This document shows positions 9-37,192 of a DNA stretch of 37,192 bases, piece by piece (position 1 is the first letter of the stretch; every line of letters begins with the position of its first letter). A model generated the notes under the pieces. It made no database searches, had not been told where the DNA came from, and was given only the letters and a program-made list of their open reading frames with translations. The stretch is from the NCBI GenBank assembly GCA_016930435.1, contig JAFGGQ010000061.1, forward strand, positions 1 through 37,192, read 5' to 3'. The translations under genes were made by a program, and so were the position numbers. Source of the stretch: a bacterium. Its GTDB lineage: Bacteria; UBP14; UBA6098; JAFGQG01.

Positions 9-1280
9 TCATGTTTTACCCTGATAATTTCTATATCTCCAGGTTTTAATTAACTCAGAACTACCTGCAATAACCGAAAAGAATAGAACCATGGCAATGA
101 TAGTGACGGTTGAAACCTCGTTGATCTCACGGCCACAAAGAGAGAAACCGATCATGTAACTTGCTAATGCCGCAAGTCCTAATGGTAATCCGGCCAGCCA
201 CTTTAAAAACGGAAGATAATTTTTACCATACACAAAAAAGAACAGACATCCCAGGTAAACCAGATAGAGATAAAGATGTATTTCCCCAATCAAAAAAGAA
301 TTCATGATCAAAAGTACCGTTCCAAAACAAGTTACGGTAGTAATTGCAGATGATTTTTGAAAGCGGAAGTTAACTTTCCGGAACCCTGTACCCAAATTGA
401 TAATAAGCCAACCTCCCATCGTCATTATGCTACATAAGACAATATTCACAAAACGTATTTGCCACAGATAGGAGGGGTTATTTTTAATTCCCATTAACAA
501 TCCCCCGAGCATCATCAAGGGGCCTAAAAGGCCGGACAAGTATGAATATCTGGGTATGGGGAGCAAATTAAGGGTGGATTTTCGATTTGCAAAAAGAAGC
601 AGAATGATTTCAAGGTATAACAGCAAAAAAAAGAAATCCGGGTATCCCAGGTAACTGGCAGTTTCCGAAAAACCAACAGTCATAATCAGCCGGCTTATTA
701 AGTTTTTATAGAACGGGATGGATAGAAATAAAAAGGTAATTACATAAAATGAAATTACTGCTAATATTGTTTTTGTGATTTTTTTGCTAAGGATATAAGT
801 GAACCATCCTATACCTGCCATTGCCAGGGCCAATTCTATGCGGATACTTAGGGTTACACCCCGGGAAAGGCTTGGGGCCGAAAAATAAAATGTAAAAAAT
901 GCCCTGACCAGTTCCCTGAAAGAATTTACATAGAGATACATTAGTCTGAAATTTTCCCTTCCGAAAATAATCGAGTCGAGGATTGGTGGAAGAAGAATTA
1001 TAATCGATCCGGAGATAATAAGTTTGAGAATGCTGATTAAAGATTTCTTCAGAATAACGCTCATGAAGGCTGAAATAGCGAGGATGAGGCTAATGAAGAA
1101 AGCGGGATAATGCAGTAAAAGCGTTTCCGTTCCTAAAAATTTGCCCTCTACCAGAATGGTTTCCAAAAATCCCCGAATTAACACTATTATGAGCAGGAGA
1201 ACCAAGTATAATGGAAGCGGAGGTGAGGCATTTTCCAGGTTCACAAAGTAATTGCTGATGCTTTTTCTAAGTCGGGCCAT
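9..1280 (-). CDS. Multi-pass membrane protein, unknown family
   Basis: The predicted protein has 423 residues, starts at ATG 1280 and ends with TGA at 9-11. It is dominated by about twelve hydrophobic segments joined by short basic loops, so it is an integral inner-membrane protein. The N-terminal 20 residues are basic and polar. The first membrane segment follows a PPLPLY stretch and contains a RGFLE motif. I see no catalytic signature, no conserved acidic pairs and no ATP-binding motif, and I do not recognise the family. It lies 42 bp downstream of the giant secreted protein on the same strand, so the two are probably co-transcribed. A role in export, anchoring or modification of that protein is possible but unsupported. 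There is no clear Shine-Dalgarno site before the ATG. Confidence 0.8.
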   Translation of the reverse strand: MARLRKSISNYFVNLENASPPLPLYLVLLLIIVLIRGFLETILVEGKFLGTETLLLHYPAFFISLILAISAFMSVILKKSLISILKLIISGSIIILLPPILDSIIFGRENFRLMYLYVNSFRELVRAFFTFYFSAPSLSRGVTLSIRIELALAMAGIGWFTYILSKKITKTILAVISFYVITFLFLSIPFYKNLISRLIMTVGFSETASYLGYPDFFFLLLYLEIILLLFANRKSTLNLLPIPRYSYLSGLLGPLMMLGGLLMGIKNNPSYLWQIRFVNIVLCSIMTMGGWLIINLGTGFRKVNFRFQKSSAITTVTCFGTVLLIMNSFLIGEIHLYLYLVYLGCLFFFVYGKNYLPFLKWLAGLPLGLAALASYMIGFSLCGREINEVSTVTIIAMVLFFSVIAGSSELIKTWRYRNYQGKT

Positions 1281-1322: not shown

Positions 1323-4300
1323 TCAGGGTAGATGTATCTTCGCCTTAAGGGTCAACTGAATCATCTGCTCTTCTTCATAAACGGAGCTATAGGTGGGGGC
1401 TACGAATTGCAGCCACAGATTATTTGAGCTTCCCACTTCAAGGTTATATCCCATAGGGCCGAAGATGTAATCCGTGGACCATACTGTAGTGTATTTAATA
1501 TAGTCGAGCATAGGGTGGAAAAATGCCGGTGGTTCCAGGGTGCTATCGAAACGGGCTCTCAGTATAAAACGGTTATAATCATTGGTATAAGATGCTTCCC
1601 AGTACCTTCCGCTATCGTAAATATAGAGTCCCAGATCTATGTTAATAGTACCGCAATTCTCAACATTGATGACCTCCGGAACATCCATGGTCTTGCATTC
1701 CCCCGGATCCAGAGTACCGATATACCAGAAGGAATCATTCAGGCACAATCGAACGATAGCTTCCACACCATTATAAAAGGCGGTGAATGTTTTAGGACTG
1801 GATATGGGGGTTGTATTATGGACCAATGGACCTCCATCGCTCCAATATTCAAACAGATAGACGGAATCGGCCGAGACATCTACCGGGGAAACCCCTATTT
1901 GATAGACCGAATCCTCAATCCCCCAAAAAACCAATTCGGCTATGCTTTCATAAGTGGAATCCCGAAGGGTGATAGATCCGTAATCTTGATAAGGGTCTTT
2001 GATGATCAGGCATTTATATCCCTTGCTGTAATATGCGGTAAATATACTTGGTCGGTCAATTGGTCCGGCCATGATCGGGTTTTCCAATCCATCATTCCAA
2101 TACAGGAAAGAGTATCGGACGCTGTCATCTATGAAATCATTTTCGGAAACGGTGATGATGTAGGTATCCCCTTCTGCCCACCAGAATGACTGGTAATTCG
2201 CTTCTTCATCAAGCCAAGCGGTTCGGTTAATTTCAAGAAATCCTTCGAGATGGGGCGGGGTTCGCTTGACTATACATAAGAACTTTCGGTAATACTGGGC
2301 TATAAATGTATCGGATTCCTCTACGGGCCCGATTTCCCTTATATTGGAGTCGCTGAGATCATCCCACCAGTGATCGAAAGTATAAAGGACACTATCCGAA
2401 GAATCAGGCGTGGTTACTCCTATATCATGATATGAAGAGGGTGCAAGCCATATTTCAAGGCTGCCGGTATAGGGGAATGTATAATCGTCGAGAATAATAC
2501 CGCCTGCGTTCTGGAATGGGACTTTGGAGATGAAGATTGGGATCGCGCCTCCTACATAATTGGCGACAAGTGAACAGCTGGTATCAACGGTAACAAAAGT
2601 GTAAAAATGGGTGCTGTCCCAGACTAATGTTCTTAAGGGCGTGGAGCTCCAATGAGTGAAAGCATAGACTATTGAGTCGCCTACCCATGGGTCGGTAAAG
2701 ACTGTGGCGGTATCACCTGCAAAATACCAACCTTCGCCGGTCTGCTCCGGGGTATAGTCTCCAGTGCCCGAATAGTCAAGGCTTACGTAGAACTGTGATG
2801 TCCAGAGCCACGTCAGCATGGATGTTTCATAGATCGTGAAATATACATTTGCAGCATCTCCGGAAGGGGGAACCGAGCCGTAGCCATCCCATCCCACACA
2901 GATAGAACGGAGCCTGCTGGTTTCAATTATAGAGTCGGCTACGAATGCCCAGATCTCGGAACCCAGCGGGAAGTAGTAAAGTCCTACCGGGGGATAAGGG
3001 TGTCCGTAAGGTGAGATAACCAGGAGGGTGGCAAGATTGCGAATATCATCCCATAACCAGGTAACCCCGGAAGGGGTTAAAATATCGAAACTAAATGACG
3101 TGTCTATGCCATCGCCCAACGATCCGCTGCCATCATAGCCGTAGCAGACCATAGTTCCCTCAAAGCGGTTGATCCATCCATTAACTTCAGAACCGTCCTC
3201 AAACCAATGGGAGCCTACAGGCGGTTCAGGGTCTCCATAATCGCTGTTAACCGTAAAGCGGTAAGTATTTGTCCAGTTCCAGGTCAATGTTGAATTGGTA
3301 TAGATGGTGAAGGAGACGTAATTGCTATCCCCTGTGGCTGGTACCGATCCGGTTCCGGAAAACCCGCTACACGAGAACCTTAAATTGGGGAATCCTTCGT
3401 CAACCGGGCTGTTCACATAGGCATTGATGACCGTTCCCCGTAGATAGTAATGGAGCCCCCGTGATGGAGATGGTTCGCCATGCGCGGAAGCGATACTCAG
3501 GGTGACGGTATTGGTATCGTCCAAGGTCAGCCAGAGCCATTGGATGCCGGATGGAGCATTCAGAACAAAGCTAAAGGTGGTGTCTATCCCATCGCCCAGC
3601 GATCCGGTGCCGTTATATCCTGCGCAAAAATAGGAATCCGGCCATTCATAGATCCCATGATTAACCCATCCGGACAGGGGTGTGCCCGGATCGAACCAGT
3701 ATTCGCCTACCGGTGGTTCCGGCGAACCGTGAGCACTCTGGACCGTAAAGCGGTATTGTTGGCTCCATAACCAGGTGATGGATGAGCTATCGGTAATGAT
3801 AAATGTCAGGCTGTCTTCGAACCCTTCTCCGGGAACCGAACCGGTTCCCCAGTAGCCGATGCAGACCCATCGTTCACCGGGAGAGACCGTATCTGCACCG
3901 CCGCTGTTTACGAACATTTCACGGCCCAGTGCTACATAATGATTCCCTACCGGCGGGGATGGCTCTCCATAGTCCGAATAAATTGTGAGGGCTACCGGGA
4001 TGGTAGTCCATAGCCATTCCACACTGGATGGTTCATTAATATCGAAGGAGAAGTAGTTTACGAACCCATCATCGAGCGAGCCGGTGCCAAGGTAGCCGGC
4101 GCAGAAGAGTGTACCGGCTTCGGCATCGATGAGTCCATAGACGGTAACCCCGGAGTCGAACCAGTGTACCCCTGCAGGTGGTACGGGTCCACCTATGGCC
4201 AGTGGATTTATAACCCTGAAGCGGTATTTTGTTCGCCAGTGCCAGAATAGGCTGGAATTTTCATAGATATGAAAGCCCACGTGAATGCTGTCTCCGGCGG

Positions 4301-7300
4301 GAGGAGGTGAACCGCTTCCCGACCAACCGGTACAAAGATGCATGGTTCCAGAATCTGCCGTATCGATGACGGTTGATGGCCATACATAGCTATGAACCCA
4401 GGATCCGGTAAGGTAATAATAGAGCCCAGGAGGCGGAAAACAGCCATGGTCGGACTCCAGTAATAGTTGGCAGACGCTGGAAGCCCCTGCCCAGTTCCAG
4501 GTGATACCGGAGGGCCCCAGCAGTATAAATGTAAAAGTGGTTCCAGGAGCACTGGGCAAGACCCCACTTCCCGTATAACCAATGCAGAACATTGTGTCGT
4601 CCCTCGAGTTTATCCAGCCGCTGACGGTGGCGCCTGCATCGTACCAATGATCCCCTTCCGGAGGATGGGGATTATCATAGTCCCCGGGATTGTTTACGGT
4701 GAACCGGTACTGAAGTTTCCAGAGCCATGTTATAATGCTGTTTTCATAAATAGTGAAGGTGAACAAGTTGGTATCCCCGCTGTCCGGCGCGGAGCCGCTA
4801 CCCACCCAGCCCTCACAATATGCCCGTATATCCGGTCCGTAACCAGCCGTCAGGGGAGAGGAAGCTTCGATCACCATGCCGGGATCATAAAAAGTAGTGC
4901 CCGCCGGAGATGGAGAACCATATTCGGAATAGACTATCAAAAGTAGTTGTGAATCCCACTGCCACTCGACAGTTGATGGTGAGATTATACTGAAGGCAAA
5001 GCTGGTGTCAGGGCTGCTGACCAGGGAACCGGTGCCAATGTAGCCGATGCAATACATGTGGCTTTCATCATCATAGGATTCCGCATAACCGATAACTACT
5101 GCAGATGAGTCGTACCAGTATATTCCGACTGGCGGGAATGGATGATCGTGCCCCTCCGGATTCTGTACAATCAACCGGTACTGCTTTTGCCACTGAGCGA
5201 TCTGGGTAATCGGTCCGTTCATTATGCAATGAGCAGGATTATCGTTTCCCAGGTAACATCCCGGTCCTACACCGTTCCAGTGGCTGAAAATTACCCTGAT
5301 CCCTCCGGAAAGGCTTATTAGCGTGTCACAACTAAAGGGAACCGATGTACCCGCAGCGTACCAGCCGGAACCGGTAGTGCTTCCATGTCCACCATTATTG
5401 ACCTCCAGATAATATTCTGCATCGAAATAGGCGGTATATGTCTCGGCTGAATCGGGGGTTACCTCATGGGCAATAGCCCCTCCATCACTCCAGTTTATCC
5501 AGTTGTAACGGGCGCCGGTTATCGCGCTGGAATCTAAGGCTTCGATGTAATGTGTAGTTCCCTCATCCCACCAAACTATGTAAGGAATATGCTGAGACAC
5601 TGCATCCACCTCGACATAACCGCCACCTGCCCCCTCAGGTTCATAGGTGATGGTTATCTGATACTGCCGGGACAGGTAGGCAGTATAGACCACATTCGTA
5701 TCGGGTACGGTTATTTCATGAACCCGGGCCTCCCCGTCACTCCAGTGATCGAAGAGATAACGAACACCCGCATATTCAAGCTGGGGTGATGGTAAGGAGA
5801 TCTGGTGTACGGACCCTATTGCCCAATTTACCGTATATGGAGAAAAATAATTAGTGCTGTCTGCGGTAATAATGCCACCCGGGATATCGGTTTGAATCGT
5901 GACCTCGGAGGATGGAACTTGTACCAGGAAATGCCAGATCGCACTCCAGGGTCCGTTTTCATAACCATCGTTGGCGTAAACCCGCCAAAAGTAAGTATGA
6001 CCACCCTCGACCGTGAACGGGCGGGAGACCGTCTCAATAGTTGTACCGCTATGCAGATAGGGGATCACCGGCGGCGCTGTTGTATCCACAAACCAGTGGT
6101 AATTCAGATCGTCCATGTCGCAGTCTGTAGAAGGATTCCAGCTCAGAATGACCTCACCCGGGGGGAGTACTTCTCCGTCGGCAGGGAAGGAAAGGGCAGG
6201 TGCTGAAGGGCGTCCATTCTGCTGAAAGCTTCGGACACTGCTGTAACCGGAATATTCATAGCCGTCGAACGCTCTGACCTGCCAGTAATAGGTATAACAG
6301 TCGGCAACCGGAACCTCCATAAATGTGAATCCGGTAGTGGTATAATATGCCGGTGGAGTAGTAGTCCCGAAATACAACAGGTATTGGGCTGAATCACCGT
6401 CACAGTCTGAAACGGGGTGCCAGCTCAGGGTAATCCAGTCGCCGGTGAGTCGCACGCCGGGGTCGGGACTTTCCAAAAGAGGTACGGGCATGGTTCCGTT
6501 CTCCCGGAACATCCTGCTCTCCGTACTGTAACGGATACAGTCGTTGTAAGCCTCCACATGCCAATTGTATTCGTAACAGTCAACTGTTGGATAACCGTTG
6601 TAAACGGTGGCTTCACCATCAGCAATGGTAATGCCATTGACCACTAATTTATATCCGGTAGCTCCCATTGCCGGGGTCCAGGAGAAATTTACCAGGTTCC
6701 CAATGGTCCGTGCGCTGTCCGCAGGTGAGATCAAGAGGGGGAGACCAAGTGACTGATCTACTAATTCGGTCATTCCAAAAATGTAATCGCAGATGTTATC
6801 GTTATTTCCCTGTTCATCTACCTTGATATAGTAGGTTCCCGGCGGTTGACAATGAGCCTCTATACGCGAAAACAATCCAAATCCACCATCATTGTTATAA
6901 GCGACTTCGGTAAGTGCTGAACAATCCCCCCGGTATAGCCACATACGTGTGTCGCCGGCCAGTCCGAAAGTTGTGCAAGTGAAATCTGAATAATGGGAGG
7001 TAGTAAAAGTGTACCAGTCTATGTCGAGACCGTCCCGGTTAATGGTGCGGGGATAATAACTGCCCGGAGTTACAGGAAGCGCTGTTGTGCAGGCGTCATC
7101 AATCTCAAATTCATCTATATTGCATGTCAGATCGGCTACATAGATGTAGTTCAATGTATAGGAGCCGGTAGTGTAGGCGCTGTAACCCCTGATCCAAAGG
7201 CGGTAATAATCCGATTCTGTACAACACCATTCAATACTGAAATTCAGGCCTTCTCCGCCATCATCATTTTCCATCATGATGACACAATCGTCCGTGCCCA

Positions 7301-9200
7301 GGTAACCATAAGTATCGGTGGAACCGGTGCTATAGAAGGTGTATCTGCGTCCACAATGCCCGTAAAACCTTATATAATCATAATCGCCGGGGGGAAATAT
7401 CGAACGTTGCTGGGTTTGATTAATGGTAGTTGGATCAATTACCGAATATTCGTAGCAGCTGTTATCGGGTTCGTACTGGTCAACAAAATAAGCATCAAAT
7501 GAATAAACCCCGTATCCGTTATAACGGTGTACCCTGAAATACCAGTAGCCATCGGTATCAATCACCGCGGAGACCGAATCAGTTACTGAACCGCTTAAGT
7601 TAGAATAACTCTTCAGTACACCGATGGGATTGTATAGATACAGATCGAAATCACCCGAGAATTCAGGGGTCATCTTCACTACGATGCGCCCATCTTCAGT
7701 AGATGCTTTGAACTTGTAAAAATCCTCCCCATCCTTATAGTAGGAATTACCGTAATAGGTATAGACCAAATACCCTTTCTCGCCATATACAGGTATGGTC
7801 AGGTCATTATAATCATTAACCAACTGATCTGAAAAGCGTAAAAGGAACCACTGGGCATAAGGGGTAGCAGCATGTACTTTGATATACCACCAGCCATCCT
7901 TATCTGATGTTATCTCTACTTGGTCGCTGGTAGGTCCGCCAATGACCCCCGAATCCCTTAATATTCCATCCGGATCATAAAGATATAGATCGTAATTATG
8001 CCCCCCGGTGAAATTATAGATAGTAACCTGGAAATAATCGCCATCTTCGACGAAGAATTTATAATACTGGTCGGTATAGCTCTGATAATCCTGGTAGGGG
8101 TTACCCCCGTTGTTCTGGATTACCGGCGCGGTGGAGAGGTAGCCTCCTCCCCACATTACTCCGCTCCGATAATGGCTATCCCATATCTCCCAGGAGATAT
8201 TCCTTTCACCGACGTCATCATCGTATGAACTACTGACTTTGAACCAGGCTTTTCCGTCATCACTCCCCCAGCTATAAGGTCCGGAAACGTCGCCGGTCCA
8301 TAGCTTGGTGCTTGCACTGTAGGTTATATTTATGTCATCACCCACAGGACTGATGTCGATCTGGTCATCGGAAGACCATCCCCCATCGGTATCCCAGGAT
8401 TCAATCTCAATGCTGACGGTGCCGGATGAAAAGGTCTGAGCGTGTTGGACATCGCACTCGAAATCATCCTCATCATCTGATATCTGACCGCTTCGGAAAA
8501 GATTGCCGTTAATTGAAGTATGGATAATTACATCATTATCGCCACCTAATCCCAACCAGTCATCCATATCAGTGCTGTGTCCTACGAAACTGATCATGTA
8601 GGTCACCGGTGACCGGTAAAGGGGCCGGGCGAATCCGCTATCGTAATCTTCAGCACTTGTTCTAATCGGCGCTTCAAAAGGAAGGGTGGAATTGTCAACA
8701 GTGGGAAAGGCGGAACAGGTATCGGTGAAGATGATATTTGGGGCACCCCATTCCGGAGGTCTTCGAAATCCAAAATGGTCTCCGCCTTCAGGAAATTTAG
8801 CGGGTTGCCAACGAACCGCTGTGACCAGGTCCAGTAAGCGCTCGGAGCTCTGGGAAAATAAAAGCCTTACAAGGGCTTCATCGGGAATTCCCTTTTTAAA
8901 TTCAAGGTAGATCTGGTTCAGCAGCTTTCGGTCCTGTTCGAGAGATTCCAGGATGTATAGATTTTCGTTTTGCCGGGCTGCATCCTCCAGTTCCAGCAAA
9001 CGATGATGAACCAGACGGTAAATTCCGGTAACATAGGAAAGCTGAGCTTCCGGTGAATCTTCATAAAACAGGCAATATTTGTTGGTTGTAAAATTCTCGG
9101 CGCGGACTATCGTTGCTGGAATTATCAATCCCAAACAGAAGGTTAACACAACTACTTTAAAATACTTGGAAGTGGTACAAAACATCTCGGGTTTTCTCAT
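1323..9200 (-). CDS. Giant secreted modular repeat protein (about 2625 aa)
   Basis: I chose ATG 9200, which has a GGGAG Shine-Dalgarno site 4 nt upstream; a TTG codon directly before it is less likely. A signal peptide is visible (hydrophobic VVVLTFCLGLIIP core, likely cut after VRA near residue 34). Domains in order: an N-terminal region with an acidic Asp-rich C2-like part (to ~370); four PPC-like beta domains (~370-810, motifs such as YDLYLYDPDG); three Fn3-like domains (~810-1100, SP...LSW motifs); InlB-type repeats (~1100-1340, FxHWSDG and YTAYF motifs); ten alternating ~80-residue repeats (~1341-2135); further InlB-type repeats (~2135-2480); and an unknown C-terminal domain. No type IX sorting tail is present, as it ends in AKIHLP. 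It is probably a surface adhesin or structural protein, since no enzyme motif is seen. The frame is intact over 7.9 kb. Confidence 0.9.
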   Translation of the reverse strand: MRKPEMFCTTSKYFKVVVLTFCLGLIIPATIVRAENFTTNKYCLFYEDSPEAQLSYVTGIYRLVHHRLLELEDAARQNENLYILESLEQDRKLLNQIYLEFKKGIPDEALVRLLFSQSSERLLDLVTAVRWQPAKFPEGGDHFGFRRPPEWGAPNIIFTDTCSAFPTVDNSTLPFEAPIRTSAEDYDSGFARPLYRSPVTYMISFVGHSTDMDDWLGLGGDNDVIIHTSINGNLFRSGQISDDEDDFECDVQHAQTFSSGTVSIEIESWDTDGGWSSDDQIDISPVGDDINITYSASTKLWTGDVSGPYSWGSDDGKAWFKVSSSYDDDVGERNISWEIWDSHYRSGVMWGGGYLSTAPVIQNNGGNPYQDYQSYTDQYYKFFVEDGDYFQVTIYNFTGGHNYDLYLYDPDGILRDSGVIGGPTSDQVEITSDKDGWWYIKVHAATPYAQWFLLRFSDQLVNDYNDLTIPVYGEKGYLVYTYYGNSYYKDGEDFYKFKASTEDGRIVVKMTPEFSGDFDLYLYNPIGVLKSYSNLSGSVTDSVSAVIDTDGYWYFRVHRYNGYGVYSFDAYFVDQYEPDNSCYEYSVIDPTTINQTQQRSIFPPGDYDYIRFYGHCGRRYTFYSTGSTDTYGYLGTDDCVIMMENDDGGEGLNFSIEWCCTESDYYRLWIRGYSAYTTGSYTLNYIYVADLTCNIDEFEIDDACTTALPVTPGSYYPRTINRDGLDIDWYTFTTSHYSDFTCTTFGLAGDTRMWLYRGDCSALTEVAYNNDGGFGLFSRIEAHCQPPGTYYIKVDEQGNNDNICDYIFGMTELVDQSLGLPLLISPADSARTIGNLVNFSWTPAMGATGYKLVVNGITIADGEATVYNGYPTVDCYEYNWHVEAYNDCIRYSTESRMFRENGTMPVPLLESPDPGVRLTGDWITLSWHPVSDCDGDSAQYLLYFGTTTPPAYYTTTGFTFMEVPVADCYTYYWQVRAFDGYEYSGYSSVRSFQQNGRPSAPALSFPADGEVLPPGEVILSWNPSTDCDMDDLNYHWFVDTTAPPVIPYLHSGTTIETVSRPFTVEGGHTYFWRVYANDGYENGPWSAIWHFLVQVPSSEVTIQTDIPGGIITADSTNYFSPYTVNWAIGSVHQISLPSPQLEYAGVRYLFDHWSDGEARVHEITVPDTNVVYTAYLSRQYQITITYEPEGAGGGYVEVDAVSQHIPYIVWWDEGTTHYIEALDSSAITGARYNWINWSDGGAIAHEVTPDSAETYTAYFDAEYYLEVNNGGHGSTTGSGWYAAGTSVPFSCDTLISLSGGIRVIFSHWNGVGPGCYLGNDNPAHCIMNGPITQIAQWQKQYRLIVQNPEGHDHPFPPVGIYWYDSSAVVIGYAESYDDESHMYCIGYIGTGSLVSSPDTSFAFSIISPSTVEWQWDSQLLLIVYSEYGSPSPAGTTFYDPGMVIEASSPLTAGYGPDIRAYCEGWVGSGSAPDSGDTNLFTFTIYENSIITWLWKLQYRFTVNNPGDYDNPHPPEGDHWYDAGATVSGWINSRDDTMFCIGYTGSGVLPSAPGTTFTFILLGPSGITWNWAGASSVCQLLLESDHGCFPPPGLYYYLTGSWVHSYVWPSTVIDTADSGTMHLCTGWSGSGSPPPAGDSIHVGFHIYENSSLFWHWRTKYRFRVINPLAIGGPVPPAGVHWFDSGVTVYGLIDAEAGTLFCAGYLGTGSLDDGFVNYFSFDINEPSSVEWLWTTIPVALTIYSDYGEPSPPVGNHYVALGREMFVNSGGADTVSPGERWVCIGYWGTGSVPGEGFEDSLTFIITDSSSITWLWSQQYRFTVQSAHGSPEPPVGEYWFDPGTPLSGWVNHGIYEWPDSYFCAGYNGTGSLGDGIDTTFSFVLNAPSGIQWLWLTLDDTNTVTLSIASAHGEPSPSRGLHYYLRGTVINAYVNSPVDEGFPNLRFSCSGFSGTGSVPATGDSNYVSFTIYTNSTLTWNWTNTYRFTVNSDYGDPEPPVGSHWFEDGSEVNGWINRFEGTMVCYGYDGSGSLGDGIDTSFSFDILTPSGVTWLWDDIRNLATLLVISPYGHPYPPVGLYYFPLGSEIWAFVADSIIETSRLRSICVGWDGYGSVPPSGDAANVYFTIYETSMLTWLWTSQFYVSLDYSGTGDYTPEQTGEGWYFAGDTATVFTDPWVGDSIVYAFTHWSSTPLRTLVWDSTHFYTFVTVDTSCSLVANYVGGAIPIFISKVPFQNAGGIILDDYTFPYTGSLEIWLAPSSYHDIGVTTPDSSDSVLYTFDHWWDDLSDSNIREIGPVEESDTFIAQYYRKFLCIVKRTPPHLEGFLEINRTAWLDEEANYQSFWWAEGDTYIITVSENDFIDDSVRYSFLYWNDGLENPIMAGPIDRPSIFTAYYSKGYKCLIIKDPYQDYGSITLRDSTYESIAELVFWGIEDSVYQIGVSPVDVSADSVYLFEYWSDGGPLVHNTTPISSPKTFTAFYNGVEAIVRLCLNDSFWYIGTLDPGECKTMDVPEVINVENCGTINIDLGLYIYDSGRYWEASYTNDYNRFILRARFDSTLEPPAFFHPMLDYIKYTTVWSTDYIFGPMGYNLEVGSSNNLWLQFVAPTYSSVYEEEQMIQLTLKAKIHLP
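2797..5180 (-). repeat. Ten tandem ~80-residue protein repeats alternating in two types
   Basis: Within the giant protein, residues about 1341-2135 hold ten consecutive units averaging 238 bp. Odd units start with YRF-type strands (YRLIV, YRFTV, YRFRV) and even units with LLLIV/VALTI/VTLSI-type strands, giving an ABABABABAB order. Every unit has a P-x-PP-x-G-like turn near its start (degenerate in some units), a C-x-G-(Y/W/F)-x-G-x-G motif in the middle with a single cysteine, and a W-x-W pair at its end (WQW, WLW, WNW, WHW). The pattern implies growth by duplication of a two-unit block of about 477 bp. I do not recognise the family; it may be a diverged InlB-like beta repeat. Confidence 0.9.
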
Positions 9201-9203
9201 CAA

Positions 9204-9416
9204 ACTCCCATTTAAATTTTATAGCTCGGGTTAAATAAACAATATAAATATGTATAAAATTAACGCAAGAATTTTAATATAGTTTTTTAATCCCGATATA
9301 ATTTGATAAATTTTTTTAATTATAACAAGCTGGCAACTTTCCTGTGGTTTTTACTTGCTAATTTTTTCTTGACACTTAATATATATAGAATATTTTCTAA
9401 CGTTTATTATTTTAGC
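9204..9416. promoter_or_regulatory. Divergent intergenic promoter region
   Basis: This AT-rich 213-bp spacer separates the giant secreted gene (minus) from the riboflavin genes (plus). On the plus strand, TTGACA at 9369-9374 and TATTTT at 9391-9396 with a 16-nt spacer form a good sigma70-type promoter. The expected transcript would start near 9403, only about 14 nt before the ribE ATG. On the minus strand, TTGCGT (9268-9263) and TATTGT (9244-9239) with an 18-nt spacer are a weaker candidate for the giant gene. No FMN riboswitch fits in the short plus-strand leader. Confidence 0.5.
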
Positions 9417-10013
9417 ATGTTTACAGGAATAATTGAAACTATAAGCAAGGTAAGAGCAATTTCATCCAGGAGTGGATTGAAGACCCTGGAGCTGCAGTGG
9501 CCTATAGTAGAAAAACCACAGATTGGCGGGAGTATTGCAGTTAACGGTGTTTGTCTGACTATAACCAGTATTAAACCAGGAGCAATTACTGCAGACATTG
9601 TAAGGGAAACATTAAACAGGACAAATTTAGGAGAATTGAGAACTGGGGATCCTGTAAATTTGGAAAGGCCTTTAACCCTTCAAAAGGAGCTGGGCGGCCA
9701 CATTATCCAGGGTCATATCGATGAAGTACTGAAAATATCCTTTCTGCGCAAACTGGAAGGCGAGCATCGTTTAGGTTTTAAGATTCCTGATGAATACCGT
9801 GACCTGGTGGTGCCCAAAGGATTTATCGCTGTTGACGGGATCAGCCTGACAGTAGCCGGCCTGCAGGGGCAGGATGTCGAATTAGCAGTTATACCGCACA
9901 CTTTTAGAAACACTATACTGCAATATAAAAGAACCGGTCAGGGCGTAAACATAGAATTTGATATTCTCGGAAAGTATGTGAATAGTTATTGCAGAAATAC
10001 CAATAAAGCGTAG
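9417..10013 (+). CDS. ribE: Riboflavin synthase, alpha chain
   Basis: The product (198 aa) joins two 6,7-dimethyl-8-ribityllumazine molecules to give riboflavin and 5-amino-6-ribitylamino-uracil. It shows the classical two lumazine-binding domains: an N-terminal half starting MFTGIIE with a [12 protein letters not shown] motif, and a second half with [10 protein letters not shown] and a VDGISLT motif. The length matches the family. I set the start at ATG 9417 because MFTGIIE is the conserved N terminus; a longer reading from TTG 9303 would add 38 unconserved residues that lie across the promoter. There is no Shine-Dalgarno site before this ATG. The stop is 4 nt before ribBA, so the rib genes form an operon that begins here. 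Confidence 0.97.
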
Positions 10014-10017
10014 GATA

Positions 10018-11238
10018 ATGGACAAAACTTGTTTTGCATCGATTCAAGATGCGTTAGAAGAGATAAAAAAGGGAAATTTTGTTATTGTAGTGGATGACGA
10101 ATCCCGTGAGAACGAAGGCGATTTCATTATTGCGGCCAGTAAGGCGGGTTCCAAAGATATTAATTTTCTGGCTAAACATGGTCGGGGATTGATCTGCATA
10201 GCTATGACCGGGGAGCGTCTGCAAGAGTTGGATCTTCATCCCATGGTTCGTGATAATACTGCTCTTTTAAAAACCGCGTTCACGGTATCCGTAGATGCTT
10301 TAAAGAATGTAAGTACCGGTATTTCGGCGCATGACAGGGCGACAACGGTCAGGGCGCTTCTGGATTCGGATACGCGGCCCGAAGACCTTGCCCGTCCGGG
10401 CCATGTTTTCCCATTGATGGCAATGGAGGGTGGTGTTCTGCGACGGGCTGGACATACTGAAGCAGCAGTGGACCTGGCTTCTCTTGCCGGGCTATATCCG
10501 GCCGGAGTGCTTTGTGAGATCATGGATGAAGATGGAAGCATGGCCCGGTTACCAAAATTACTTGAAATGGCAAAGACTTTTAATATCAAGATAATTACTA
10601 TACAGGACCTTATTGCTTATCGGCAGAAAACCGAAAAACTGGTAAAAGAGGTTATTGTCGTTGATTGTCCCACCAGGTATGGGCAGTTCAAGCTGCATCT
10701 TTTCGAGAGCATTCTTGATGGGAAACAGCATCCTGCCCTGGTGAAAGGGGAAGTAAAAGGGAAAAAGAAGGTGCTTGTAAGGGTTCATGATGAATGCCTT
10801 ACTGGGGATGTTTTCGGCTCCAAACGCTGTGATTGCGGGGTTCAGTTGGGCTCGGCTTTGATGCAAATAGAAAAGGAGGGCCTCGGAGTATTTCTGTATA
10901 TGCGGCAAGAGGGAAGAGGGATCGGGTTCGGCTCAAAAATGCTGGCTTATCATCTTCAGGAGCTTGGATTGGATACCGTAGAAGCGAACATCCGGCTGGG
11001 TTTTAAACCTGATCTACGGGATTATGGGATCGGGGCTCAAATACTGCAAAGCCTTGGACTGAGCACCATTAGATTACTCACCAATAATCCCCGAAAGGTG
11101 GTTGGACTGGAGGGGTATGGCTTACGTGTTGTGGAAAGGGTACCTATCGAAGTAGTCCCTTTCGATGAGAATATTGAATATTTGAGGACAAAAAAGAAAA
11201 AAATGGGGCATATAATGACCCTGGACGAGGACAAGTAA
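10018..11238 (+). CDS. ribBA: Bifunctional DHBP synthase / GTP cyclohydrolase II
   Basis: This 406-residue fusion supplies both starting branches of riboflavin synthesis. The N-terminal half (about residues 1-205) makes 3,4-dihydroxy-2-butanone 4-phosphate from ribulose 5-phosphate. It shows the acidic [10 protein letters not shown] motif at residues 26-35, [18 protein letters not shown] and HTEAAVDLA. The C-terminal half opens the imidazole ring of GTP. It shows the zinc ligands C260, C271 and C273 in DECLTGD and [12 protein letters not shown], the RQEGRGIG motif and [14 protein letters not shown]. All key residues I can check are present, so both halves look active. It starts 4 nt after ribE and is followed 18 nt later by ribH. 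Confidence 0.97.
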
Positions 11239-11256
11239 GAGTTCAAGGAGATATTT

Positions 11257-11730
11257 ATGGTAAAAAATTATGAAGGGCATTTAACTGCCAACGAGATTAA
11301 AGTAGGGATAATCGTGAGCCGGTTCAACGATTTCATCACCAGGAATCTACTGGAAGGAGCCCTGGATTGCTTGAGGCGCCACGGGGCTAACGATAAGCAA
11401 TACGATATAGTCTGGGTTCCCGGAGCATTCGAGATACCGGTTGCCGCTAAAAAGCTGATCAGCAAAGGCGGCTATGATGGTGTTTTATGTCTTGGTGCGG
11501 TGATCAGGGGGGATACCCCTCATTTCGAATACGTTGCGGCCGAGGTGACCAAGGGCATCGCTCAGCTTGGATTGAGCGAGACCTTCCCACTTAGCTATGG
11601 AATTATCACCGCTGACACTATCGAACAAGCCATTGAGAGGGCAGGAACTAAAGCTGGTAATAAAGGCTGGACAGCCGCCCAGAGCCTGCTGGAAATGATC
11701 GACCTGTTCAAGAAAATGCAGATTGGATAA
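11257..11730 (+). CDS. ribH: 6,7-dimethyl-8-ribityllumazine synthase
   Basis: The 157-residue product condenses 5-amino-6-ribitylamino-uracil with the butanone phosphate made by RibBA to give the lumazine substrate of RibE. Recognisable motifs are VSRFNDFIT near the N terminus, VPGAFEIP, the GAVIRGDTPHFEYV block holding the catalytic histidine, and the C-terminal NKGWTAAQSLLEM helix. The length is typical for a subunit of the icosahedral or pentameric enzyme. The start is ATG 11257 with AAGGAG about 7 nt upstream. It lies between ribBA and nusB in the common rib-nusB order, and nusB begins 3 nt after its stop codon. Confidence 0.97.
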   Translation: MVKNYEGHLTANEIKVGIIVSRFNDFITRNLLEGALDCLRRHGANDKQYDIVWVPGAFEIPVAAKKLISKGGYDGVLCLGAVIRGDTPHFEYVAAEVTKGIAQLGLSETFPLSYGIITADTIEQAIERAGTKAGNKGWTAAQSLLEMIDLFKKMQIG

Positions 11731-11732
11731 AG

Positions 11733-12155
11733 TTGGGCAAAAGACGGGAATCAAGACAATTAACCCTCATGGCACTTTACGCCTGGCAGATAGGTAAAAC
11801 ACAAGATCTGTCTAAAATAGAGGCGTACTGCCTGAATTATATGCATTCTCAGGGTGCCGAAACCTTTTTTCACGACCTCCTGAATAATGTCGTGAGTAAT
11901 ATTAAGGAAATTGACTCTATTATTATGGAAAAAAGCCGGAACTGGGATTTCGACCGCATTTCGGTCATTGACAAGAATATCCTTAGGATCGGAATTGCCG
12001 AATTGCTGTACTTTAATGAAATTCCACCTAAAAGCACTATAGATGAAGCTATTGAATTAGCTAAAACCTTCGGCTCGGTTGATTCCTCCAAATTCGTTAA
12101 CGGAATACTGGATGCAGTATTTCATGAAATCCTGAATCCTGAGGAGAGCGTCTAA
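11733..12155 (+). CDS. nusB: Transcription antitermination factor NusB
   Basis: The 140-residue, all-helical product binds boxA RNA with ribosomal protein S10 (NusE) and supports antitermination on rRNA operons. Evidence is the basic N terminus GKRRESRQLTLMALYAWQ, the C-terminal motif IDEAIELAKTFGSVDSSKFVNGILD and the usual length. The start appears to be TTG at 11733: the first in-frame ATG (about 11769) would remove the conserved basic helix that contacts RNA. The gene follows ribH by two nucleotides, an arrangement seen in many bacteria. Its TAA stop directly abuts the GTG of the next gene, which implies translational coupling. Confidence 0.95.
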   Translation: MGKRRESRQLTLMALYAWQIGKTQDLSKIEAYCLNYMHSQGAETFFHDLLNNVVSNIKEIDSIIMEKSRNWDFDRISVIDKNILRIGIAELLYFNEIPPKSTIDEAIELAKTFGSVDSSKFVNGILDAVFHEILNPEESV

Positions 12156-26685: not shown

Positions 26686-29600
26686 ATGAAGGTTCTAATT
26701 AAAAGTATGGCAATTCTTTTTATTGTTGTTCTTTTTTGGGGGCCGTTAGAAGCGATAAACAAGATTCCAGCTTCCCGGATGAAGGAGATCGATGGAAATC
26801 CGGTGGGCCCGAAAATATCTGAAAAGATCAGCTATTATCCCGCAGTTACTATCTGGTCAACTGTGGGTTCCACCCGGTACCGCGAACATGCGGTTTATTC
26901 TGATAGCATTCCGATGATGATATGGCCTCATGCCACGGTTGACCGTAATGACCGGGTTCATGTGGTCGCCATGGAGAATCTGGAGTTGGCTGTTGAACCC
27001 CAGATGCTGGGATATTTCCGCTCAGATGACGGGGGCCGTACCTTCGACGCTATGGCACTGGTGGATTCAATTTCGACCATCTCTGCGGTGGTCGCAGCTT
27101 CACCGGTGTCCGATAAAGTAGCAATTGTTTATACCCGGCCCAGGTCCTTCAGCGGTTCTTCCCTGGATGATTATAATAACGACGTGGTTTATGTGGAATC
27201 TACTGACGGCCTAAGTTGGGATTTTGCTACCAGGATCAACACGACCGCCTTTTTCCTCGCGGATACATTCCGGGCTTACTGTGATCTTGACGCCATTTAC
27301 GATTACGAGGACGAGCTGCACATCGTGTTCAATGTAGTATATTTTGATGAGTTGTTAAGCTATATTGGGCCCTCAGCAGCCAAGATCTGGCATTGGTCAG
27401 AAGCTGCCGGTCTGAGTGAAGTCGCCGATGGATGGTACGATGTGACCGATCCTGGAAATTGGAACCGAACGGTCTGCAAACCCAATATCGGGGTGGATCC
27501 CTCCTCCGGCTATCTATATTGTACCTGGACTCAGTTCGACACGCTTGATGTATCCGCTACCGGTCTGAATAACGGGGATATCTGTGCAGCAGTTTCCACC
27601 GATGGCGGTTTGAACTGGGAAGAACCCCATAACCTCACCCGAACACCATCCCCCGGAGCCACAGCAGGCAACTGCAAAAGCGAGCATTGGGCATCCCTGA
27701 GCGCTCTGGTAAATGGATTCTTGCATATTATTTATGTGAGCGACCGGGATGCCGGCGGGGCGGTTACGGACCCTGTCCCTGAAGGCACCTGGACCCTTAA
27801 TGATATCAAATACCTCAAAATCCCCGCTGATCAACTGCTTGAAACTCCTCCTGCCGATACACTCCTGCTGTCACCCGGCCTTACCGTGGGAACATCCTGG
27901 TATGATTATCAGCAAAATGCAAGTATGGGTAAGATGATCGCTGTGGATAACGACGGGGGAGTCCACCTTGTATGGATGAACGGCCTGGATTACCTGGCTA
28001 TAAACAGGCATATCTATTATAATTACTGCGATTCTGAAGGTGATTGGTTAGCCCCCGGCGAGGGAGTGCTCGCCGAAGGATTCACCAGGGGCGGATATTG
28101 CACACTCGGCTTGTTCTCCGATAACCGGCCAGCCATAGCATACCACACTACTTTGATCTACCTGGATGTAAGCGGCCCAGAAGCAGAGATCGTTGCCCCC
28201 ATGCCGGACACCTATAGCGCTTGCCCGGAACAGGATATACTGCTTACCCTCTTTGACCCGCGAGGAGTTAACCCCGCATCGATCATCCTTTCGGTGGATG
28301 CTTTCCTGTATGAACCCAGCGATGACGAGTTGAATTATGACGGCGAATATCTCACCTTTACACCATCTGTCCCATGGGAAAACGGCCAGGAGGTGCAGGT
28401 AGCACTGCTCGCTGCCGAGGATAGCCTGGGCAATCCGCTCGAGGAAATGCTGTTGTGGAATTTTACTATCGACCTCGCACCACCAATCGCTATTTTCCCA
28501 TATCCCGCCAATGGAAGGATCACCTCCTGCCCCGGAAGCCCGGTTACAGTGGTCGTAAGAGATTCACTGAGCGGATTGAACTTGTCCGCTTTTCGCTTCA
28601 ATATACAGGGACGAAGCTTTTCCTTCGCCGATGCATCACTTACACTGGAAGGGGATTTGATTCAATTCTATCCACCCAGCGCAGGGATGATCTTCACCGA
28701 TGGAGAAACACTCACAGTTACACTGGAAATGGAGGATAGCCCCGATTATTGCAGCCCCAACAGCGATGAATTTACATGGTACTATGCCGTGGATATCACC
28801 GGTCCTATCGCCTCGATGCCATTACCGCCGAATGGGGCTATGATCTCCGAGACCAGCCCCGATATCTCCGTTCATATCAACGATAACCTGTCCGGGGTCA
28901 ATCCCGCTACGGTGATACTAACGGTTAATTCGGATACATTCGCCTGGAGCGATTCGGTGTTCGAATGGGATGGGGAAGTCCTGCTTTTACCCGCCGAAAA
29001 CCACGGACTGGTCTTCTCGCCGGGTGAACGGGTAGAGGTGAGTTTAATACAGGCAAAGGACCGCCCCCATATTTGCCCCGCAAACAGCCTCCAGTTCAGA
29101 CCCTTTACCTGGGATTTTACTATATTCGCTGCTACCTCAATGCTTCCGGATACCTCAGGCTCTGCCGGAGATACTGTAGGCATTCCGCTGACCATTCAAA
29201 ACCTGGGAAGCTATGCTGTGGAATCCATTCATATTTTAATGAACATAGATCCCGGGGTAATCATACCCGTCGGATGCAGTTTCACCGGCGCGATCACGGA
29301 AGGATGGACCACTGACCTTTTTTCATTCGATGGCGGTATTCTGAATATTCTAATAAGCGGCAGCCCGGTTTCCGCCGAGAGCGGGATATTCAGCTTTATA
29401 AAATTCCAGGTAGATCCCGCTGCTATCGAAGCCTCATACTCTATCCTCGACCTGTTATCCGTTACCCTAAATGAGGGGGCATCAACCGAACTGATTGATG
29501 GATCTTTTATAGTGGATTGGAACATTCCGGTCTGGCTTATGGATTTAAGGGTGCTCGATAATTCCGGAGCCCTTCAGCGGACTCTGACATTCGGTTTGGG

Positions 29601-30372
29601 TGAAGGGGCTTCCCCGGGTTTCGATCCGGGAATGGATATCATAGCCCTTCCAAGGCCCTATCCCGAAGCGGAAGGCACCTTCTTTATTAACGATGAGGAT
29701 TACCCCTATATAAACAATCTGGTCAGGGACATAAAACCCCCGGATGCTATCCCGGCCATCTGGTTACTACCAACAGCCGGTGATGGATACCTTGAATGGA
29801 ATCCCGATTTCCTCCCCGGAGGGTGGATCACTATTAATGATTCCATGGAGATGCATTCCGCAAGAAATTACCATTTCAATGATTACGAAGAGATAATCAT
29901 TAAATTTGCCCAACCGGAACTGGGAATATTCAACTTTCATTTAGAGCAAAACTGGAACCTTATCTCCTTACCGGTGATCCCGCAGGGCTGGACAATGGAA
30001 GCGCTGTTCCCCACCAAAATAGGGGATATATATTCCTTTAATCCGGTGAGTCATAGCTATGTGATCGCGGAGGAAATCCAGCCTGGTTACGGTTACTGGG
30101 TCTATTCCGACCGCGATACTGCCTACAATGTGGGAGGTATGATTGTGTACAGTATCCGCCGCGGTTTAACCAAGGGCTGGAATTTGTTAGGCTCCCCGGT
30201 TTTTTCTGTTGCGGTGGACGATCTGGAGACCGATCCCCCCGGTTTGATGGTCACCCCGGTCTATGGCTTCGATACAAGTATTACGGGTTATATTCCGGAA
30301 ACCATACTCCAACCCGGCAAGGGTTACTGGATAATGTTCAACGAGGAGGGTTATCTGGAGACGGGTGAATAA
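26686..30372 (+). CDS. Secreted protein with Asp-box propeller, Ig-like and cohesin-like regions
   Basis: The 1228-residue protein has a signal peptide (hydrophobic ILFIVVLFW core, likely cut after LEA near residue 23). Residues about 60-490 look like a sialidase-type beta-propeller, with Asp-box motifs RSDDGGRTF (~112) and STDGGLNW (~304), but no sialidase catalytic set could be recognised. Three Ig-like repeats follow (about 495-815, each with an SGVNPATVILTV-like strand). A cohesin-like domain (about 815-945) has AGDTVGIPLTIQNLG and IFSFIKFQV. The C-terminal 280 residues contain two 'W-N-L-(I/L)' and 'GYGYWV' blocks of the type seen in secreted FCB proteins. It has no type IX sorting tail. 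The TAA stop at 30370-30372 falls in the target duplication of a MITE-like element. Confidence 0.88.
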   Translation: MKVLIKSMAILFIVVLFWGPLEAINKIPASRMKEIDGNPVGPKISEKISYYPAVTIWSTVGSTRYREHAVYSDSIPMMIWPHATVDRNDRVHVVAMENLELAVEPQMLGYFRSDDGGRTFDAMALVDSISTISAVVAASPVSDKVAIVYTRPRSFSGSSLDDYNNDVVYVESTDGLSWDFATRINTTAFFLADTFRAYCDLDAIYDYEDELHIVFNVVYFDELLSYIGPSAAKIWHWSEAAGLSEVADGWYDVTDPGNWNRTVCKPNIGVDPSSGYLYCTWTQFDTLDVSATGLNNGDICAAVSTDGGLNWEEPHNLTRTPSPGATAGNCKSEHWASLSALVNGFLHIIYVSDRDAGGAVTDPVPEGTWTLNDIKYLKIPADQLLETPPADTLLLSPGLTVGTSWYDYQQNASMGKMIAVDNDGGVHLVWMNGLDYLAINRHIYYNYCDSEGDWLAPGEGVLAEGFTRGGYCTLGLFSDNRPAIAYHTTLIYLDVSGPEAEIVAPMPDTYSACPEQDILLTLFDPRGVNPASIILSVDAFLYEPSDDELNYDGEYLTFTPSVPWENGQEVQVALLAAEDSLGNPLEEMLLWNFTIDLAPPIAIFPYPANGRITSCPGSPVTVVVRDSLSGLNLSAFRFNIQGRSFSFADASLTLEGDLIQFYPPSAGMIFTDGETLTVTLEMEDSPDYCSPNSDEFTWYYAVDITGPIASMPLPPNGAMISETSPDISVHINDNLSGVNPATVILTVNSDTFAWSDSVFEWDGEVLLLPAENHGLVFSPGERVEVSLIQAKDRPHICPANSLQFRPFTWDFTIFAATSMLPDTSGSAGDTVGIPLTIQNLGSYAVESIHILMNIDPGVIIPVGCSFTGAITEGWTTDLFSFDGGILNILISGSPVSAESGIFSFIKFQVDPAAIEASYSILDLLSVTLNEGASTELIDGSFIVDWNIPVWLMDLRVLDNSGALQRTLTFGLGEGASPGFDPGMDIIALPRPYPEAEGTFFINDEDYPYINNLVRDIKPPDAIPAIWLLPTAGDGYLEWNPDFLPGGWITINDSMEMHSARNYHFNDYEEIIIKFAQPELGIFNFHLEQNWNLISLPVIPQGWTMEALFPTKIGDIYSFNPVSHSYVIAEEIQPGYGYWVYSDRDTAYNVGGMIVYSIRRGLTKGWNLLGSPVFSVAVDDLETDPPGLMVTPVYGFDTSITGYIPETILQPGKGYWIMFNEEGYLETGE

Positions 30373-30719: not shown

Positions 30720-32756
30720 TTATTTTAAATACACCGCTCTTCTCGTAATGCTTTTTTCCCCGATTTTTGCACGGATCAGGTAGACGCCGGAACCGATGGT
30801 TTTGTCGGGTTGCCAGACGAATTCGTCTTTCGCGTCATTGCGAGAAGGGCTTTGCCCGACGAAGTAATCGCCTTGATTCGATGAGATTGCTGTGGCCTTC
30901 GGCCTCGCAATGACAGAAACGCGTCTGCCATTAACATCGAAAATCTCAATTCCCGCCCCCGCCGGCGCGGTGATGTAGACCGCAGAGTTGAATGGATTGG
31001 GATATGTTAGAAGCTCAAATTTACCCGGTATGTTCTTTCTTTCTGCTACCTTGAGCGGTCCATCCCAGAGGTACACCAGAACACCGCCAAATACCGTGGA
31101 GCAGATCAAGTCTTTTACCCCATCGTTGTTGTAATCCCAGAAACAAACATCATATAATCCTCCGGTCGAATTTTCAAGAAAATCTTCAACGAAGTTTACC
31201 CCCCATTCCGGGGCAGTACTATCACCCGTATTTTCCCAAAATGTAAGTTTGTGTTCGTCAAAGCTTGCACCGGTAAAGAGATCATAATCCCCATCATTGT
31301 CGAAATCTTCAAAGCATAAGTTTGCCCGGTACAATGGCCCCCACCATGGTGTCTCCGGAAATTCACTTAAATACACTCCACTGGAAAAATTAGGGGTTGT
31401 TGAATCACCAGTATTTTCAAAGAAATATAAGCTCTCAGAAGCTGTTCCCACAAAAAGGTCCAGGTCATTGTCGGAGTCTATATCCACCAGCGCAGGACCT
31501 AAGTGATTTCCCAGGGATATTCCGAACCATCCGGTTACCGGGGCCGCCCAATTATGGACACATCGATCGCCAATATTCTCAAAATATCTCAGGGAATCGC
31601 CAATCCCGCCCATTACTATATCCAGATCGCCATCGCTATCCAGATCACCGAAAGCAGGGTCTGCGGAAGCTCCCCATAAACCATCCACAAGACTGGAATC
31701 GACCGTCCAGTCAGGGTCGCCGGCAGTACCGATATTCCTTAGACCCAGTTTATAATGATACCCGAACAGTAGCATTTCAGGGAGGTTATCATCATTCAGA
31801 TCAGCCATAGCAATATGGGTTGAATAGGAAGTTTCGATAGTTTCCCAGGGCCAGGGCGCTTGTTCCCATGTTGGGCTATTTATGGTTCCAGTATTAGTAT
31901 ATAAATAATCTAAGTGGATATCCGAACCCATCACCAATGCTGGTAACCCTGAATTGAACAAGTCCCAGATAGCAACCCCTCCAACTGAAGAAGGCGTATG
32001 CGGAAAATATGAATCATCCGGGGTATCCCAGACTGGATTCGATGCATTCCCAATGTTTTTAACCAGGTGAAAATCATTACCTTGTTGAATAACAAGATCG
32101 AAATCACCATCCAGGTCAATGTCAAAGAGACAAGGATTAACATGATTTGGGTCGAGTACCACAAACTCAGAATCGACCAGCGTGAAATCGAACGAATCTG
32201 CAGTTCCAATGTTCTCATAAAAGGCTATCTTACCCCTTGAATCCCCAATGAAGAGGTCGAGATCAGAATCGGCATTAATATCTGCCAGAAAGGGTTTTGC
32301 CCCATAGACTCCATCATATCCCAGGAAGTAATCTTCGATCAGGGTAAATTCGGGGTAGAGTGCTGTTCCGCCGGTATTTTCATAGTATGCCATCTGCCCA
32401 TTCCAACCACCGAGGATGAGGTCCAGATCACCATCGTCATCAAGATCACCCAATGCAGGGCAAGCATCGTACTCTCGAGAAACATTTCCCCAGTGCTCAT
32501 CTCTCATCCTCCAGTCGGGTATTGAAGCAGTGCCTACATTTTCCCAAAGCTTAATATATCCATCGTCAACTCCCCATAGCAGGTCTGCGTCGCCATCCGT
32601 ATCAAGGTCATAGAACCTGGGTTTAGCATCTTCCATACCGCCTGCAAACAAAGGCGCAATATCACCATCAAATTTGCAGTTATATTCGGGTTCCCAGCCA
32701 GCGTAAACTTGGCCTATAAATACTAAAATACCAAGGGCTACCAAAATTCGTTTCAT
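30720..32756 (-). CDS. Secreted FG-GAP/VCBS propeller protein with type IX-style sorting domain
   Basis: The 678-residue protein starts at ATG 32756 (AAGGA upstream) with a signal peptide, MKRILVALGILVFIGQVYA. About ten FG-GAP/VCBS-like repeats fill residues 25-590. They carry calcium-binding loops such as DLDTDGDAD, DLDDDGDLD, DFDNDGDYD and DYNNDGVKD, which points to one or two beta-propellers of integrin-alpha type. The C-terminal domain has YPNPFNSAVYI, IFDVNGRRV and IGSGVYLIRAKIG and ends in YLK, the tail used for type IX export and surface attachment. Residues 615-641 of this tail are encoded by an 81-bp palindromic element inserted in frame. A reading from TTG 32831 is rejected because that codon lies inside the -35 box. 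Confidence 0.92.
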   Translation of the reverse strand: MKRILVALGILVFIGQVYAGWEPEYNCKFDGDIAPLFAGGMEDAKPRFYDLDTDGDADLLWGVDDGYIKLWENVGTASIPDWRMRDEHWGNVSREYDACPALGDLDDDGDLDLILGGWNGQMAYYENTGGTALYPEFTLIEDYFLGYDGVYGAKPFLADINADSDLDLFIGDSRGKIAFYENIGTADSFDFTLVDSEFVVLDPNHVNPCLFDIDLDGDFDLVIQQGNDFHLVKNIGNASNPVWDTPDDSYFPHTPSSVGGVAIWDLFNSGLPALVMGSDIHLDYLYTNTGTINSPTWEQAPWPWETIETSYSTHIAMADLNDDNLPEMLLFGYHYKLGLRNIGTAGDPDWTVDSSLVDGLWGASADPAFGDLDSDGDLDIVMGGIGDSLRYFENIGDRCVHNWAAPVTGWFGISLGNHLGPALVDIDSDNDLDLFVGTASESLYFFENTGDSTTPNFSSGVYLSEFPETPWWGPLYRANLCFEDFDNDGDYDLFTGASFDEHKLTFWENTGDSTAPEWGVNFVEDFLENSTGGLYDVCFWDYNNDGVKDLICSTVFGGVLVYLWDGPLKVAERKNIPGKFELLTYPNPFNSAVYITAPAGAGIEIFDVNGRRVSVIARPKATAISSNQGDYFVGQSPSRNDAKDEFVWQPDKTIGSGVYLIRAKIGEKSITRRAVYLK
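30834..30914 (-). repeat. 81-bp palindromic repeat inserted in frame in a CDS
   Basis: The element is bounded by a perfect 11-bp inverted repeat, GTCATTGCGAG (30834-30844) and CTCGCAATGAC (30904-30914). Just inside each arm is a small hairpin: GGGCTTTGCCC on the left and GGCCTTCGGCC on the right. It is exactly 27 codons long and lies on codon boundaries (residues 615-641, starting VIARPKATAIS). Repeats with these ends recur in many unrelated bacterial genomes. The insertion is comparable to Rickettsia palindromic elements inside genes. Confidence 0.85.
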
Positions 32757-32802
32757 TTGAAATCCTTTCCTTACTGTTTTTAAAGAGATAGTTATTTGTA
32801 AG

Positions 32803-32831
32803 AATTTAGCTTTTAAAAGGGGAAGTGTCAA
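32803..32831 (-). promoter_or_regulatory. Promoter of the FG-GAP gene
   Basis: On the minus strand a perfect TTGACA (32831-32826) stands 17 nt before TAAATT (32808-32803). Transcription would start near 32796, leaving a leader of about 40 nt with the AAGGA site of the ATG at 32756. The boxes and spacing are identical to those of the DUF4388 promoter. Confidence 0.55.
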
Positions 32832-32900
32832 TACAATTATACTAAATAAGGCTTATTCGATATTTACTTATCACGAAAAGACAATAGGAGTATCTATTTA

Positions 32901-35174: not shown

Positions 35175-35180
35175 TGTTGC

Positions 35181-37178: not shown

Positions 37179-37192
37179 CTCTGAGTATTTAC

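Follow-up and report, generated by a model that had tools for sequence, protein, structure and literature searches.

The ten consecutive repeats encoded in a 37,192-nucleotide stretch of DNA from a bacterium of the class UBP14/UBA6098 (contig JAFGGQ010000061.1; the whole stretch is hereafter called the window) are, by sequence, a Cys/Trp variant of the InlB B-repeat (Pfam Flg_new_2), favoured in this lineage. A conspicuous repeat without a name in the domain libraries searched is now explained. The protein carrying these units, which we call C/W units, very probably combines the variant repeats, arranged as a stalk of fixed length, with an exchangeable head and a shared C-terminal domain. A signal peptide would export the protein, the ten InlB-like domains would hold the N-terminal head away from the C-terminal domain, and the latter would probably retain the protein or sort it further. 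A published survey treats Flg_new as a stalk domain (PMC9210967).

Comparison of sequences establishes the homology to InlB-like repeats, conservation throughout the class, the frozen number of units and the exchange of heads, and gives no sign of cysteine pairing. The class-wide occurrence of a standard stalk together with an exchangeable head and a shared C-terminal domain is our best reading of these results and the most interesting lead that they provide.

Organization of the protein and its repeat array

The array is encoded by an ORF of 2,626 codons on the minus strand (window 1323-9203), whose listed start is TTG, with ATG as the very next codon. Within the 2,626-aa protein, the array occupies residues 1342-2134 (window 2802-5180, minus strand) and consists of ten units of 74-86 residues each (Table 1). 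Two motifs mark these units, C-x-G-[FYW]-x-G-x-G and a W-x-W at the unit end. Each of them matches ten times in the whole protein, every time inside the array, and the shuffled array region contains on average 0.0035 CxG motifs and 1.7 WxW motifs. That an exported protein is concerned, as the original prediction supposed, is supported by its signal-peptide-like N-terminal sequence.

The units form two types that strictly alternate. Mean identity amounts to 46.8% among A units, 39.4% among B units and 30.6% between A and B, and of the 126 possible partitions of the units into five and five, none separates them better than odd versus even. The motif positions, identities and best partition thus all bear out the proposed ABABABABAB order, with both motifs in every unit. 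The lone cysteine ascribed to each unit is found in nine of them, but not in unit 4, which has two extra cysteines (aa 1578 and 1588).

Related repeats without the C/W signature lie on both flanks of the array, so the repeat region exceeds the borders originally drawn around it. The repeat adjoining unit 1 is intermediate in character, having Phe at the Cys place and Ala at the first Trp place.

Table 1. Features of the repeat protein, in window positions
Feature	Position	Strand	Remarks
Signal-peptide-like N-terminus, aa 1-35 (...VRA|ENF)	9099..9203	-	sequence
N-terminal head: ~555 aa unmatched in nearest relatives, followed by beta domains (by eye, PPC-like)	6741..9098	-	nothing above Pfam cut-off
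About three Ig/fn3-like domains, aa ~822-1095	5919..6740	-	sequence, by eye; no Pfam match
InlB-like repeats, ordinary F..W(S/N)DG ... A-x-[YFW] type, upstream of array	5181..5906	-	
Intermediate repeat adjoining unit 1: F-S-H-W-N-G ... A-Q-W	5190..5420	-	matched by C/W unit model
Unit 1, type A	4956..5180	-	
Unit 2, type B	4719..4955	-	
Unit 3, type A	4491..4718	-	
Unit 4, type B	4236..4490	-	two extra Cys
Unit 5, type A	4008..4235	-	
Unit 6, type B	3765..4007	-	
Unit 7, type A	3531..3764	-	
Unit 8, type B	3273..3530	-	
Unit 9, type A	3051..3272	-	modelled
Unit 10, type B	2802..3050	-	modelled
InlB-like repeats, ordinary WSDG type, downstream of array	1782..2801	-	
C-terminal domain, ~150 aa	1326..1781	-	found on several short proteins as well as on the giant stalk proteins

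Relationship to InlB-like repeats

Single C/W units gave no match in sequence searches of Pfam, NCBIfam and the PDB, and a two-unit profile likewise found nothing among PDB sequences. The original prediction had named a strong match of single units to a described family as the outcome that would speak against it; Pfam and NCBIfam returned none. The Pfam cut-off of Flg_new_2 (23.6 bits), which ordinary F/A units in related proteins pass, is not reached by C/W units. A literature search on the motif WNWKTQY and on the candidate phylum name yielded nothing relevant.

Kinship became visible when profiles were compared with each other. A profile of 355 C/W units matched one built from Flg_new_2 members with P 3.7e-5 and a probability of 71%; the reference set comprised nine members, eight from outside the class and one (L071) from the window's own taxonomic family. 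The two profiles align in register, C-x-G-W falling on F-x-x-W, so that the cysteine comes to stand at the core Phe. Ten column-shuffled controls of the same comparison gave P values of 0.1-0.75. When the profile was restricted to the ten units of the window, the match was weak (P 0.048).

Both kinds of repeat are also found side by side in the same proteins. In the paralogue L036, Flg_new_2 covers five N-terminal stretches (E 1.6e-19), and the model of the C/W unit picks out the best of them at the same place, residues 469-545; further along, C/W units alternate with units of W/A-x-W type. L037 too has C/W units alternating with InlB-like ones. In another phylum, the four C/W units of L102, scoring 74-98 bits, are interspersed with Flg_new_2 stretches, six in number (E 7.2e-36), and L109 has one Flg_new_2 stretch adjoining one C/W unit.

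The predicted fold points in the same direction. Modelled as a pair, units 9 and 10 are all beta with very high confidence (pLDDT 97.4, pTM 0.85). Among the structures matched is 2y5p chain D, the B-repeat of InlB from Listeria monocytogenes, with a probability of 0.89 and a TM score (target) of 0.65, the Foldseek E-values lying above 1e-3. Published work characterises this B-repeat as resembling a beta-grasp that lacks the helix (PMC8900821). Superposition on 2y5p_D covers 65 of 72 residues with Z 5.6, an rmsd of 3.0 and about 11% identity; InlB has a single such domain, in contrast to the arrays of ten found here. A SHIRT domain (7avk, Z 5.3) is also among the structural matches. Since unrelated proteins score similarly, a pilin even reaching 6.7, the fold evidence by itself is not decisive.

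Could these units nevertheless constitute an undescribed beta-repeat family having nothing in common with InlB-like repeats? The silence of Pfam, NCBIfam and the PDB about single units and the middling structural Z would agree with it. C/W units, however, interleave with InlB-like units and grade into them within the same proteins, their profiles align in register, and the structural match is to the InlB B-repeat itself, which leaves a separate origin very improbable. The original prediction had allowed for a diverged form of the known InlB-like repeat, and this reservation was well founded, profile comparison, interleaving in paralogues and predicted fold all agreeing. Its suggestion of an undescribed family is correct insofar as Pfam and NCBIfam do not recognise single units; they form a subfamily and no new fold.

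The traits held in common with PF18998 (Flg_new_2, the divergent InlB B-repeat domain; see also PF09479, Flg_new, and TIGR02543) include a unit length of about 70-80 residues and the order of motifs, namely G at the turn, F/C-x-x-W-x-G and a final A/W-x-[FYW]. C/W units differ in having Cys for the core Phe and Trp for the core Ala, an additional P-x-PP-x-G turn, a longer G-T-G-S-x-P loop and single-unit scores below all library cut-offs. With Cys and Trp in place of the core Phe and Ala in all ten units, the array is classed as a variant of the family, distinct from its ordinary members.

Two other similarities were examined and dismissed. Hits to RcnB (PF11776), reaching 1.5e-4, came from five two-unit members; judged by eye, they probably reflect a chance likeness of the Y-G-x-P-x-PP-x-G-x-x-W stretch. 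NCBIfam matches to MbnP 'WxW' remained far under the cut-off.

The variant is concentrated in one lineage. A protein search detected several more ORFs with C/W units in the window's genome and C/W units in all 17 genomes of the class, with none in 44 others. The two-unit profile again recovered 17/17 class genomes, together with 3 of 369 others, one of the three strongly. In the other phylum, matches occur in 12 of 35 genomes, where a protein usually has a single C/W unit or a few of them. The named members of the class are metagenome-assembled genomes throughout, and a search of the window's genome for 16S detected none.

Cysteine and tryptophan positions

In 486 units collected across the class, the Cys place is occupied by Cys in 74% and by Phe in 14%, and the two Trp places hold Trp in 98% and 100%. 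The residues at these places are correlated. In a wider set of units ending in W, Cys is accompanied by W-x-W 336 times and never by A-x-W; aromatic residues at the Cys place go with small-x-W in 84 units and with W-x-W in 4, and W-x-W follows other residues in 41. This provides a recognition rule for the subfamily: Cys is paired with W-x-W, whereas Phe is paired with A-x-[FYW]. It appears that small and large side chains have been exchanged in the core, Phe plus Ala giving way to Cys plus Trp, and the Cys would then pack against the Trp. A tree of 472 units indicates approximately one origin of the C/W type, so a test for independent co-change of Cys and Trp on this tree is underpowered and the correlation is no independent proof of packing or contact.

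Pairing of the cysteines of A and B neighbours through disulfides had been proposed originally, and such cross-links would make the array a rigid, redox-stabilised rod. The probable export of the protein and the retention of Cys in most units of the class would suit this idea. In adjacent C/W units, however, Cys has been lost together three times against 4.1 expected, and singly 64 times, so neighbours lose it independently. It has given way to A, L, N, V, S, R or F, thus also to the hydrophobic Ala, Leu, Val and Phe. Lone C/W units, lacking any partner of their kind, exist in another phylum, and the cysteine aligns with the core Phe of the parent family. We consider a disulfide-linked rod most unlikely; the free cysteines are most likely buried core residues. 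Nor does one hydrophobic-tolerant position per unit suggest the binding of a metal or cofactor, which had been put forward as well.

Another possibility is that the repeats, instead of being a passive stalk, bind a ligand themselves, for example carbohydrate via exposed Trp pairs. Near-invariance of the two tryptophans would be expected in that case, and the InlB B-repeat is capable of functional contacts (PMC8900821). Yet the alignment places the two Trp at core positions of the parent repeat (A-x-F/W), on the same side of a single strand, which makes their packing inside each unit more likely than the stacked ladder between units suggested originally. The first Trp, moreover, is kept almost exclusively where the Cys place is non-aromatic, as packing would demand, and it is the heads that vary, not the units. 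Ligand binding by the repeats is thus improbable, if less so than the disulfide rod, and a stalk function remains preferred.

Unit number, heads and the C-terminal domain

Each of the 16 members examined from two orthologous groups, which span several families within the class, has ten units; other members have other numbers, e.g. four, five, seven or eight. A given unit is closest to the unit of the same rank in its orthologue in 68% and 83% of cases in the two groups. The best match is of the same parity in 406 of 420 and 60 of 60 comparisons within the groups and in 194 of 210 between them. Expansion by two-unit blocks, as originally proposed, is supported by these counts, and it is ancient rather than ongoing; since parity is preserved both within and between groups, AB blocks must have multiplied before the class diversified, after which the number froze. 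On average, adjacent units share 32.5% of residues and second neighbours 39.2%. The alternation, with direct neighbours about 30% identical, fits both old duplication of AB blocks and the avoidance of misfolding between neighbours, unlike neighbouring domains having been proposed to reduce misfolding (PMC8201768).

This history bears on the possibility of a periscope-type stalk whose length is varied by ongoing recombination. Periscope proteins project a head by such arrays (PMC8201768), and the present protein resembles them, their SHIRT-domain rods and fibrillar adhesins in having tandem small beta domains with an N-terminal head; it is also likely to be a surface protein. Periscope units, however, are near-identical and variable in number, whereas here the units have diverged (31-47% identity), keep their rank between orthologues and number ten in sixteen members of two groups. 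A Gram-positive wall anchor is not seen here either. Length variation by recombination is accordingly hardly credible for this array; a stalk of frozen length and diverged units, kept across a class, is the opposite of periscope proteins.

Heads have been exchanged above this conserved stalk, as the comparison with the closest relatives indicates. The stalk of the window protein is 51-53% identical to those of L027 (53%) and L034, and its first ~555 residues have no counterpart in either of the two. From about residue 555 on, the head is 47% identical to these nearest relatives. Other members carry different heads, among them a discoidin domain and a C25 protease (E 1e-62).

The C-terminal domain of about 150 residues forms the end of the members checked, apart from L033, which ends differently, and L032, which runs into the contig end. 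It is also present on proteins of 234-370 aa and occurs in 17/17 genomes of the class and in five others; more than 100 sequences of it were recovered from the class. Pfam and NCBIfam searches with this domain gave no match, and a model derived from four sequences was poor (pLDDT 51). The domain is a good candidate for a sorting or anchoring signal and probably sorts or anchors the protein.

Type 9 secretion offers a parallel, its sorting domains (Por_Secre_tail, PF18962) being likewise placed at the extreme C-terminus of otherwise unrelated proteins. SprA_N is found in 14 of the 17 class genomes, G000 included, and three ORFs in the window show similarity to type 9 sorting domains (ordinary Por_Secre_tail proteins). 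These two facts make it plausible that the protein is exported and possibly attached to the surface. The C-terminal domain differs, however, from type 9 sorting domains in sequence: Por_Secre_tail had no match in the protein (Pfam) or in its C-terminal domain (NCBIfam).

Going further, we tentatively consider a display system of the class's own, in which a standard Cys/Trp InlB-like stalk and an undescribed C-terminal sorting or anchoring domain would carry unrelated, exchanged heads at one fixed height per group. This wider reading is possible, and we hold it with distinctly less confidence than the stalk itself. The heads belonging to such a system would be beta-propeller-like, PPC/fn3-like, a C25 gingipain-like protease and discoidin.

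The C-terminal domain and proteins with C/W units

The giant stalk gene ends in a domain of about 150 residues that is common to short proteins and giant stalk proteins and reaches a maximum of 18 copies in one genome of the class UBP14/UBA6098. Searches of Pfam and NCBIfam returned zero matches to this domain, a candidate for a sorting or anchoring role.

In a 2754-aa ORF (L030, G000:C137), a C25 protease resembling gingipains (E 1e-62), together with its propeptide, is joined to eight C/W units (the Cys/Trp variant of the InlB-like repeat) and to the shared C-terminal domain. A pair of giant genes, L036 (3643 aa) and L037 (3136 aa), lies on a single contig (G001:C189). In both, C/W units alternate with InlB-like units of the W/A-x-W type over about 1,000 residues, a stretch across which the two are 59.5% identical.

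Other genes of the window

Features of the window
Feature	Position	Strand	Remark
423-aa ORF, very hydrophobic	9-1280	-	directly downstream of giant gene, same strand
C-terminal domain, ~150 aa	1326-1781	-	also in class genomes
Riboflavin genes, then nusB	9303-12155	+	divergent from giant gene
1,228-aa ORF	26686-30372	+	
Three tandem ORFs (703, 757, at least 665 aa)	30720-37190	-	

The hydrophobic ORF has no Pfam match, and the riboflavin genes are ordinary (lumazine-binding, DHBP synthase/GTP cyclohydrolase II, DMRL synthase). The 1,228-aa ORF, with cohesin-like and BNR matches that are all weak, none being stronger, is likely one more secreted multidomain protein. Among the tandem ORFs, Por_Secre_tail, the type 9 sorting domain, scores above cut-off at the C-terminal end of two (32901-35174 and 35181-37178) and below it in the 703-aa ORF; FG-GAP repeats occur in the 703-aa ORF and in the one of at least 665 aa.
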